Positions 17,650 through 20,504 of a stretch of DNA of 30,843 nt are shown in pieces. A program made the position numbers and the translations under genes. A model generated the notes under the pieces. It searched no databases. It worked only from the letters and a program-made list of their open reading frames with translations, and was not told where the DNA came from. Origin of the DNA: a virus; the IMG/VR virus record IMGVR_UViG_3300044912_000063, positions 1 to 30,843 of that record; one strand, written 5' to 3'. Every line of letters begins with the position of its first letter. Position 1 is the stretch's first letter.

Positions 17650-18149
17650 CACTTGACCACTACATAGAAGGAAGGTACAAACACTTTAAAGAGTTAGCGT
17701 ACAACATCGCTCGGAAAGAACCCTTTTACGAGGATCTTTTGCACGATTCTTTGCTTTCTATGTTCGGTTCAAAGCACATCGAGAACTTAATTGATACAGG
17801 CGACTTTGAATTTTATCTTATTCGCGTAATGTATTTGTCGGTGAACAGTCCTACGTCGCCATTCTACAAACAAACGATAGCCTGGAACAGAAATAGACGC
17901 GACTTCAAAGACTACGCGCATGAAGTCGACAAGACGTGGTTAGGCGCACGAATGACAAACGAACAACTTGACATTCTTATCAGTAGGTTGAGCGAGTTTG
18001 AACGTCTTATCTTTCAAGAATACATATTAGAAGACTTCACCTATCGTGCGCTTTCCAAAGAGACAGGAATACCGATGCCATTCTTGTATCGCACCATTGA
18101 TTCAATTAAACAAAAAATAAGAGCAAATGTTATTCGTAAAACACAATGA
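17646..18149 (+). CDS. Phage sigma-factor-like transcription regulator
   Basis: A 167-residue protein resembling a minimal sigma-70-family factor. Residues about 17-65 have a region 2-like helix set (FYEDLLHDSLLSMF and DFEFYLIRVMYLSV). Residues about 107-160 look like region 4 with a helix-turn-helix (LSEFERLIFQEYILEDFTYR, ALSKETGIPMPFLYRTIDSI). The start is TTG at 17646, inside the upstream stop as TTGA; the next Met is residue 39, which would cut region 2. The size suits ECF-like or phage late-promoter sigma proteins. As the second gene of the late arm, it may direct host polymerase to late promoters. This is inferred. Confidence 0.65.
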   Translation: MTLDHYIEGRYKHFKELAYNIARKEPFYEDLLHDSLLSMFGSKHIENLIDTGDFEFYLIRVMYLSVNSPTSPFYKQTIAWNRNRRDFKDYAHEVDKTWLGARMTNEQLDILISRLSEFERLIFQEYILEDFTYRALSKETGIPMPFLYRTIDSIKQKIRANVIRKTQ

Positions 18150-18567
18150 GTACAAACGACGTTTGGATATATGCCGAACGTGTAAATTCTTCGAAGCAAC
18201 AACGCAATCTTGCGGACCACTTATCGTAGGAGCAGACGAAGAAATAGAAGTAAAGTTCAAACGCAAGACAATTAAGTTATGCGGTTGCGTTATGCCAGTC
18301 AAGGCTAAACTTGCGTTCGCATCTTGTCCTGCATCAAAGTGGGAAGGTGTGCTTTCACTTGACGAACAGATAGAGTTCAAACGCTTTCTTCTTGACGCTC
18401 AAAAGAAGGGCAGGATTGACGCGATTGACCTCAGCAAGTTCTATCAGTTCAAAGACAAAGCAACAGGCGCTTACAACGAGCGTTCGACGTGTGGCGCGTG
18501 TGTTAAGAAAGACATCAAGACGTTTCTTGAATCGATGTTAGACGTCGATGTTGATTTGAACAATTAA
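18127..18567 (+). CDS. Cysteine-rich putative zinc-binding protein (146 aa)
   Basis: A 146-residue protein with many cysteines. They fall in an N-terminal cluster CRTC (residues 16-19) and SCG, then LCGC and SCP, and a distal CGAC (about 126-129). The N-terminal set, about residues 16-68, looks like a zinc ribbon with the sequence order C..C..C..CGC..C seen in unnamed phage proteins that I recall. The C-terminal part is helical and acidic, ending in DVDVDLNN. It overlaps the sigma-like gene by 23 bases. It may be a nucleic-acid-binding regulator. The 452-bp gene-free region follows it. Confidence 0.65.
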   Translation: MLFVKHNEYKRRLDICRTCKFFEATTQSCGPLIVGADEEIEVKFKRKTIKLCGCVMPVKAKLAFASCPASKWEGVLSLDEQIEFKRFLLDAQKKGRIDAIDLSKFYQFKDKATGAYNERSTCGACVKKDIKTFLESMLDVDVDLNN

Positions 18568-18607
18568 GTTCTTAAAACTATTTAGGCAACCTTTGGTTAT
18601 ACCAACG

Positions 18608-18615
18608 TATATTTG
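18608..18615 (+). promoter_or_regulatory. Candidate -7 box for the structured RNA
   Basis: TATATTTG on the plus strand, an exact match to TAnnTTTG and identical to the -7 box of the minus-arm promoter. No good -33 box at the usual distance. The expected start lies at about 18619-18622, at the first base of the first pseudoknot helix. Confidence 0.45.
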
Positions 18616-18954
18616 TATAGCCAAGCAATATGTTACTACCCTCTTTTGTTTCTGCTTGGCGGCTAAAACAATTGAGGGTATATTTTTTATCGTCGGAAGC
18701 AACTTAACGACAGGGTAAAAGACGAACAAGGGCAACTGTGGGATTGTGTTATTAGCCCAATGGTATGACAAAGGAATAAGCCATACGACACACGGAGAGG
18801 CAATTCTTCGAAAGATAGATTCCAGACTAACGGACATTGCTGTTCACGTTAGGACACGACAGCGAGAGACTCATTCGACGGAGTAATTATCGCAAAGTGA
18901 GCGTCCAACACATTAAGAAATTAGTGTGCTTGGATATTTCTATCTCTCACTTAG

Positions 18955-19001
18955 CTCCAGATCTAATCTCGGGAGTAATTATATACCGACTGTTTTTTTT
19001 T
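18955..19001 (+). terminator. Hairpin and T9 tract ending the structured RNA region
   Basis: A bulged hairpin (ctcc, agat, loop cta, atct, ggag) is followed at a distance by nine Ts at 18993-19001. An alternative short stem (tcgg 18969-18972 with ccga 18986-18989) lies closer to the T tract. Neither is a textbook terminator, but the T tract and the fact that the next gene starts 18 bases later favour RNA 3'-end formation here. Confidence 0.4.
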
Positions 19002-19019
19002 GAATTTAAGAATGACACT

Positions 19020-19238
19020 ATGTTTAAAGTAAACTACATTGACTTTGTTACGTCTCAATATGGACACAACGCTTTTATGTTAAAGTCAAAGGACGAAAGA
19101 AAGTTCAACAACAAAATTGTGTACAAAGTGGAATATCAAAACCTTTCCAACGAAGAAACAATTGAATTTTACACCTACGACAAAAACAAGATTGTCACAG
19201 GTGGCACAATTGATACTTTAAACGCTAACTACAAATGA
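19020..19238 (+). CDS. Hypothetical protein after the structured RNA region (72 aa)
   Basis: 72 residues from the ATG at 19020. The frame is open further upstream (to 18837), but that part lies in the structured region and looks non-coding. The protein is beta-rich: FKVNYIDFVTSQYGHNAFML, KIVYKVEYQNLSNEETIEFY and DKNKIVTGGTIDTL. It overlaps the next gene by ATGA. No family recognised. Confidence 0.6.
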   Translation: MFKVNYIDFVTSQYGHNAFMLKSKDERKFNNKIVYKVEYQNLSNEETIEFYTYDKNKIVTGGTIDTLNANYK

Positions 19239-19588
19239 TACTTATCCCCGCCCAACTCGAAGCCGTTACTACGCGAAAGGACAAAACGTTAAAGTTGACC
19301 TTTGGAACGAATGAGTTAACACCTAACCAAGCGAGTGAACTATTCACAATTGCTAATCAATTTGGTTACCTCGCGTTCAAAGATGAGACATTTAAGCGCG
19401 AAGAACTCGAAGTAGTAGAAAGCCTTAAGTCAGAGTTAGAAGATACGTTAAAGAAACCCTCACAACGTTTAAGAGGTGTTATGTTTCGTTGCTTCGAGTT
19501 GGACAACGAAGGGTTCAACACGTTCTCGAAATACTACGATTCGAAAATGGAACAAGTTATTAACCACTTCAAAAGTAAATTGACTTAA
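19235..19588 (+). CDS. Conserved phage protein of unknown function (117 aa)
   Basis: A 117-residue protein starting MILIPAQLEAVTTRKDKTLK, followed by LTFGTNELTPNQASELFTIA and QFGYLAF. I recall this N-terminal block in many Bacteroidota phages as an unnamed family. The C-terminal half is helical and ends in a basic stretch (YDSKMEQVINHFKSKLT). The start overlaps the previous stop by 4 bases, and a terminator-like hairpin follows. No activity known to me. Confidence 0.65.
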   Translation: MILIPAQLEAVTTRKDKTLKLTFGTNELTPNQASELFTIANQFGYLAFKDETFKREELEVVESLKSELEDTLKKPSQRLRGVMFRCFELDNEGFNTFSKYYDSKMEQVINHFKSKLT

Positions 19589-20173: not shown

Positions 20174-20176
20174 CAA

Positions 20177-20332
20177 ATGAGCGACAACAAATTAAACTTT
20201 TTGAAATCACAAATCACCGCCTTTCATCCAGAGTGGACGAAAGAGCAGGTTGAGATGGAAGCAATCAGAATATACAACGAGGCAAACACTATCGACGACG
20301 ACGACGAAGGTTGCCTTTATTGTGGATCGTAA
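20177..20332 (+). CDS. Small acidic protein with a C-terminal CxxC (51 aa)
   Basis: A 51-codon ORF starting 3 bases after the previous stop. A helical N-terminal part (NFLKSQITAFHPEWTKEQVE) is followed by an acidic run and the end DDDDEGCLYCGS with one CxxC. Codon use and spacing match the neighbours. The CxxC could bind a metal as a dimer or act in redox. No family recognised. Confidence 0.55.
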   Translation: MSDNKLNFLKSQITAFHPEWTKEQVEMEAIRIYNEANTIDDDDEGCLYCGS

Positions 20333-20504
20333 AATAACTGTACCTGCCTAAAAAGTAGAGTCCCTTGCAGATGGTCGCGACATTATTGCAAGTAGCTGTG
20401 ATAGACCTCGCAAAGGATGCTACCACATAACACCAAGCTAAAGTCGGGTGTATTTTCAACAAAAGAATTGATATTGTAGATATTAATCGAATAAATACGA
20501 ATAA
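20333..20504 (+). ncRNA. Gene-free stretch, candidate small structured RNA
   Basis: 172 bp without a supported ORF. Helix 20355-20363 with 20415-20423 (8 of 9 positions pair, one wobble) encloses a perfect 6-bp hairpin, 20364-20369 with 20387-20392. The hairpin loop (ggtc, 20373-20376) can pair with gacc at 20404-20407, forming a pseudoknot. A 5-bp hairpin with a U-rich tail follows at 20430-20456. No promoter box of the TAnnTTTG type is seen in front, so it may be processed from the operon transcript or act as a leader of the tail chaperone gene. No known RNA family recognised. Confidence 0.45.
20430..20456 (+). terminator. Terminator-like hairpin before the tail module
   Basis: 5-bp stem acacc (20430-20434) with ggtgt (20447-20451), 12-base loop, then TATTTTC. 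Weak stem but T-rich tail; it lies between the small structured region and the tail chaperone gene. Confidence 0.4.

Follow-up and report, generated by a model that had tools for sequence, protein, structure and literature searches.

Here, we show that a phage whose uncultured host is of Bacteroidota type carries in its genome, at 18608-19003, a non-coding and strongly conserved structured RNA of about 370 bases. Coordinates refer to the window, that is, the whole stretch of 30,843 nucleotides that was analysed (IMG/VR record IMGVR_UViG_3300044912_000063). The RNA is almost certainly a distant branch of a widespread class of phage RNAs, an extended Betaproteobacteria-1, which is present in about 100 uncultivated phages. 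Identical words at two fixed places in these RNAs hint that they may work by pairing with DNA.

A structured RNA without a protein product

A sequence-only reading had described 18568-19019 as gene-free and as encoding a phage RNA with serial pseudoknots that is neither tmRNA, RNase P nor an intron, and both covariation and Rfam searches agree with this description. In the window RNA, Rfam finds no family at gathering score and no tmRNA, and ARAGORN finds neither tRNA nor tmRNA; gathering-level matches to group I or II introns, RNase P, GOLLD, ROOL and OLE are absent from the window and from class members alike. Weak Rfam matches to mir-96, aspC and SNORD58, in the window and its homologues, were attributed to chance, as were candidates H6 and H7 on inspection. 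BLAST of the window RNA against phage and plasmid records returned no relative. The whole RNA recurs in about 30 related IMG/VR loci at 83-99% identity, with indels of 1-2 nt and no common reading frame. Among 23 homologues, which also differ by 1-2-nt indels, the longest open stretch shifts frame and stop codons change place, and a coding reading is excluded. A conserved protein frame in relatives, named beforehand as evidence against an RNA, is not seen in these 23; covariation, whose lack had been named likewise, is found at PK1, P7 and P9. Because the folding energy is weakly unusual (z of -1.7 on the plus strand and -2.4 on the minus strand), the evidence for the RNA is comparative, not energetic.

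In the window, the RNA is preceded by genes for a VRR-NUC nuclease and for a sigma-factor-like protein, with a DnaA-like protein farther upstream. The short gene just downstream (Table 1) is missing in three relatives (L154, L107 and L016), in which the next gene directly follows the RNA. The same phage has another gene-poor stretch, of about 330 bp, at 20174-20504.

The TAnnTTTG box of the earlier reading is present and places the start of the RNA at about 18619-18621. We infer that this box is used as a promoter and that the 3' end lies near the second copy of the repeated word or near the T9 tract. These ends are plausible, judging from the placement of the box, which is of the Bacteroidota promoter type, directly before the first helix and from conservation, which stops near 19003. 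The T9 tract is there as described, but its length is not conserved, relatives having TTTTTT or ATTCAA at this position.

Of the two H-type pseudoknots proposed earlier, PK1 stands. Across 39 distinct homologues, 98.8% of its cells are paired and seven pairs have changed on both sides, giving 63 double-change cells, a count that none of 500 shuffles equalled. S1 occurs as GCCAAGCA, GUCAAACG, GUCAAGUG or GUCAAGUA, each with a matching partner, and in S2 a G-C pair is replaced by A-U. The other, PK2, does not survive in full: its second helix (18837-18843/18859-18865) is broken in 10 of 23 homologues, P6 fits better, and two other pseudoknots take its place. PK1 S2 (from 18638) together with U6 at 18683-18688 resembles an intrinsic terminator, and could end a 65-nt RNA or attenuate the long one.

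For the RNA as a whole (23 full-length sequences, 66 pairs, 500 shuffles), 97.8% of cells are paired and 28 are doubly changed, with 0 of 500 shuffles as high. On comparative grounds, compensatory changes prove PK1 and the helices of P7 and P9. In P7, two pairs are doubly changed in 7 of the 23 homologues (CUCAAG/CUUGAG). P9 is the 19-bp interrupted hairpin that had been noticed from the sequence, and what had been taken for a weaker third pseudoknot (18730-18792) corresponds to P2 plus P3; of the pseudoknots, P3 has the strongest support in the class at large.

Table 1. Features of the RNA locus and its adjoining genes, in window coordinates.
Feature	Position	Strand	Elements	Observation
Upstream neighbour gene	18127-18567	+	146 aa, weakly DUF6171-like	Conserved in relatives
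TAnnTTTG promoter-like box	18608-18615	+	TATATTTG	Invariant but for one position, 39 homologues
PK1, H-type pseudoknot	18620-18679	+	S1, GCCAAGCA 18620-18627 / TGCTTGGC 18653-18660; S2, ACCCTCTTTTGTTT 18638-18651 / AAACAATTGAGGGT 18666-18679, two U-U mismatches	Covariation
P1	18683-18722	+	18683-18691/18714-18722; closes conserved loop, (C)GUCGG 18691-18696 ... ACGACAG 18707-18713	100% paired in 23 homologues
P2	18730-18758	+	GGGC 18730-18733 / GCCC 18755-18758; loop motif ACUGUGGGA 18735-18743	
P3 pseudoknot	18745-18792	+	P2-loop UGUGU 18745-18749 / ACACA 18788-18792	
P4 hairpin	18763-18786	+	GUAUG/CAUAC, loop ACAAAGGAAUAAG	Invariant, 23 homologues
P5 pseudoknot	18773-18823	+	GGAAU 18773-18777 / AUUCC 18819-18823	Invariant, close homologues
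P6 pseudoknot	18800-18840	+	GCAAU 18800-18804 / AUUGC 18836-18840	113/115 cells paired
P7 hairpin	18827-18852	+	CUAACG/CGUUAG	Double changes
Word copy 1	18880-18890	+	GGAGTAATTAT	11-nt exact direct repeat
P9 interrupted hairpin	18896-18951	+	Between the two words	Four pairs with double changes
Word copy 2	18972-18982	+	GGAGTAATTAT	Near RNA 3' end
T9 tract	18993-19001	+		Possible transcript end
Downstream gene	19020-19238	+	72 aa	
Second downstream gene	19235-19588	+	117 aa	Conserved in relatives

Searches with two flanking genes yielded 157 IMG/VR loci. In the window's phage group, 22 of 60 distinct loci have type A, the RNA of the window, in the slot between these genes, 24 have type B and 14 have type C. 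The first 128 nt alone (promoter box and PK1) are found in about 45 loci, followed by a different, non-coding type B sequence. Type B (L119:5644-6001, L153:5631-6001; about 24 loci) has the same box and PK1 and then a different conserved non-coding stretch, which begins ATGAAACAAACTGGATAAG, contains an GCCCTTTTAAGGGC hairpin, whose counterpart in L118 is GCTCTTTTAAGAGC, and has a pyrimidine-rich end. One contig carries, at L112:3007-3094 on the minus strand, an inverted second PK1 with the type B start, about 1.9 kb from the first. Type C lies on the opposite strand, in loci where the two flanking genes are 761-764 nt apart (L090, L009, L157 and others). It has a TATATTTG box, at once a pseudoknot (TACTCGNTT/..CGAGTA with GCCCC/GGGGC), and then a T-run; compensatory changes in this pseudoknot are visible by eye (TACTCGATT/AATCGAGTA and TACTCGTTAA/TTAACGAGTA). 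Type C may be an RNA in its own right, whose 5' end is built in the same manner. A slot that swaps three different RNAs offers a natural comparison set within the window's phage group.

A wider class of phage RNAs

With RF02932, the Rfam model of Betaproteobacteria-1 RNA, the window RNA scores 26.3 bits and its homologues 28-32 bits, against a gathering cut-off of 49.4 bits. This sub-threshold match led to pattern searches for distant relatives, which returned a contig from a metagenome-assembled genome (MAG), L159, followed by sets of 31 and of 119 viral contigs. L159 and the viral contigs share the element order GGUCGG, ACGGCAGC, ACUGUGGGA; a few of the contigs matched by chance, inside coding DNA (for example, L172, L207, L216 and L236). 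One further pattern, GGCTCC at 75-105 nt past CTGTGGGA, had an ill-chosen spacing and gave four uninformative matches. BLAST gives no alignment between L159 and the window RNA. Six of 18 tested class members match RF02932 strongly (85-102 bits), and in the others of the 18 the RNA has no Rfam match of any kind.

Pairing is well supported across the class. P1 forms at least 7 of 8 pairs in 60 of 67 members, versus 5.7% in controls that combine arms of different members; its 56 different arms include 17% G-U pairs, which suit RNA better than single-stranded DNA. P2 forms 5 Watson-Crick pairs in 46 of 67 (5% swapped), and the P3 pseudoknot forms at least 6 bp at the same offset in 27 of 53 (4.5% swapped). 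The window has the P3 pairing too, between the P2 loop and a stretch about 38-50 nt downstream. Later elements have counterparts by eye: P4 in L159, L166 and L174; other complementary words in the place of P5 in L159 (GAAGA/UCUUC) and L174 (GGGAA/UUCCC); and equivalents of P6 in L159 (AUUGAC/GUCAAU) and L174 (GAAUGAG/CUCAUUC). L159 also has a similar promoter-like box, a few tens of nucleotides ahead of the core.

A covariance model, R1, was built on 42 diverse RNAs of viral contigs and MAGs, with the window group left out. R1 finds 18684-18770 as the sole match in the window (38.8 bits, E=2.4e-10). It also matches the type A relatives, and it gives no match on type B. From the R1 match and the class-wide pairing, we place the window RNA, as a remote branch with a 5' pseudoknot of its own, in a large class that is represented in Rfam by a fragment. 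The earlier suggestion that the RNA is new is thus right only in part, its core being remotely related to RF02932. What was a 120-nt database motif becomes a full-length class, with a pseudoknotted core of about 250-310 nt and a putative 3' end.

Among 395 Bacteroidota genomes, that of L159 alone has a convincing match, a few weak matches having been inspected; in 39 phage records, nearly every one has a single strong match. One contig with a class member also holds a Type II hammerhead ribozyme (L165:1144-1211, plus strand; 57 bits, RF02276). A literature search of papers available without subscription returned no paper on Betaproteobacteria-1.

A variable word at two fixed places

The two copies of GGAGTAATTAT form a direct repeat absent from the list of the sequence-only reading; an equally long repeat arises in 15 of 1000 shuffles. 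In 14 homologues the two copies start with G and in 9 with A, and they never differ from each other at this base (23 of 23). In the wider class, a variable word of 6-12 nt stands past GCUCC, usually with one G between, and again 48-97 nt later past CACC, usually with one A between. The exact run is at least 7 nt in 33 of the 47 members that have both motifs, versus 1.6% with words swapped between members. In a held-out set of six members with both motifs, the run is at least 5 nt in five and at least 7 nt in two. The window copies lie at the expected places, flanked by UUCGAC and AUCUCG, not by GCUCC and CACC; the pair is likely homologous to that of the class, going by position, with different flanking motifs. 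This strict rule is described in none of the sources searched, and it renders the function of the RNA directly testable.

Reverse complements of the word within the RNA, contiguous or bulged, are no more frequent than in swapped controls, and third copies show no excess over expectation nearby or, for longer words, in most of 11 whole contigs. Since there is neither an internal complement nor an excess of third copies, the partner of the word is most simply the opposite DNA strand at the same place. In length, the word is close to the RNA:DNA hybrid inside RNA polymerase.

The neighbours of the class, identified by sequence inspection at 67 loci, are mostly replication and recombination genes, such as SF2 helicase, YqaJ nuclease, ERF and SSB; in L182, L200 and L245 the RNA is directly followed by a primase-like gene. 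Across these 67 loci, no protein partner or gene is constant. In 16 of 35 contigs the RNA lies near the GC-skew minimum (within 10% of the length), versus 7.8 expected; for the mean distance, p=0.010 against random genes and 0.038 against gap-matched genes, and the second batch, taken by itself, does not reach significance (p=0.16). AT-rich DNA is seen past copy 2 in 28 of 29 members.

Candidate functions and known systems

How might the word act? We tentatively favour a mechanism in which it directs RNA:DNA pairing, as an R-loop or primer, at the RNA's own 3' end. The RNA would be transcribed independently from its own promoter, and its knotted core would fold so as to keep copy 1 of the word exposed. 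Once the polymerase had passed the second word, copy 1 (or the RNA 3' end) would pair with the template strand there, and pairing at copy 2 would give a stable RNA:DNA hybrid at the RNA's 3' end. By opening the duplex, this hybrid could be used in phage replication or recombination as a primer or as a loading site, in a manner comparable to ColE1 RNA II. We infer the exposure of copy 1, the hybrid and the role in replication alike. Possible, though doubtful, is the general statement that the class is a protein-free phage RNA machine, in which a core word equals the RNA's own 3'-end word, of 8-12 nt, and an addressed hybrid starts replication or recombination, the copies changing together and varying freely between phages. 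The word repeat and the mainly replication and recombination neighbours count in favour of the hybrid mechanism, with which the GC-skew position and the AT-richness after copy 2 agree weakly. Against it, the GC-skew signal is weak, and the AT-richness may simply come from ribosome binding ahead of the following gene. Moreover, three arrangements in one slot would be odd for an essential origin, unless they do the same job.

The main rival, itself possible at best, is an accessory, host-directed RNA whose core binds, blocks or redirects a host factor, such as a defence system, nuclease, RNA polymerase or ribosome, and which the slot swaps as phages swap counter-defence genes. This would fit the finding that, in one phage group, RNAs of three unrelated kinds occupy the slot, all of them preceded by a promoter box and a 5' pseudoknot, as well as the very strong conservation of the loops and the lack of a phage protein partner in our searches. 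It leaves unexplained why a word that is free to vary stays identical at two places in each RNA, and the class-wide neighbours are replication genes, not counter-defence islands.

It is less likely that the RNA is a cis-acting leader, a 5' region controlling transcription or translation of the downstream gene with PK1 and the U-run as attenuator. In many class members, a start codon does lie a short way beyond copy 2, and the second helix of PK1 with U6-7 is intrinsic-terminator-like; nevertheless, the downstream genes vary between class members, different genes follow the RNA even in the window group, and its size and knotting exceed those of ordinary leaders. It is improbable that the RNA is catalytic and cleaves or ligates itself at the words or close to them, with circularisation or loss of the hairpin between them. 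The large knotted core and conserved loops recall known ribozymes, and equal words could mark two reaction sites, yet the word has no internal complement to act as guide and the class matches no Rfam ribozyme. Still more improbable is RNA-guided DNA targeting by a host or distant phage nuclease, with copy 1 as guide, copy 2 as target and CACC as recognition motif. GCUCC before copy 1 and CACC before copy 2 would place that motif at copy 2 only, but no nuclease or recombinase is constantly linked, the window group lacks CACC, and the target would be the phage itself. Least probable of all is a template for reverse transcription, on which cDNA would anneal anew through the words and be extended further, in the manner of the DRT2 and DRT10 RNAs, given that a motif scan (YxDD context, not a profile search) of 635 neighbouring ORFs at the 67 loci found no plausible reverse transcriptase motif.

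The likeness to DRT2 and DRT10 is that their structured RNAs, too, contain a direct repeat, which can vary between systems; DRT10 non-coding RNAs require an A-B-A' repeat whose sequence varies freely (PMC12632851). The class RNAs differ in lacking a nearby reverse transcriptase by motif scan, and in their repeats, which are 6-12 nt long and 48-97 nt apart, whereas in DRT10 2-4 nt flank a short unit. GOLLD, ROOL and OLE are likewise large knotted RNAs; GOLLD and ROOL are phage-borne, ROOL without a known protein partner (PMC12286853). The window and class RNAs are shorter and have no Rfam match to these three, and the window lacks tRNA.

RF02932 and the window RNA agree in the order, and roughly in the spacing, of two elements, a P1 that closes GGUCGG...ACGGCAGC and then a P2 that has ACUGUGGGA. 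In the window, the P1 loop is CGUCGG/ACGACAG(G), C-G having replaced the closing G-C, and ACUGUGGGA is identical. RF02932 models the first 120 nt only, leaving the later pseudoknots, the word pair and PK1 outside, and the host group of the window differs.

Finally, in ColE1 RNA II, a stretch of RNA forms with the template DNA a persistent hybrid that primes replication, with rG in the RNA and dC in the template (PMC4412123). No sequence relation of the class RNAs to RNA II was noticed, and their word is longer and varies freely; a primer role here is a candidate by analogy. The likeness is that of a structured RNA with an internal stretch that matches DNA further down. If the word does address DNA, it would amount to protein-independent marking of a site on the phage's own genome.
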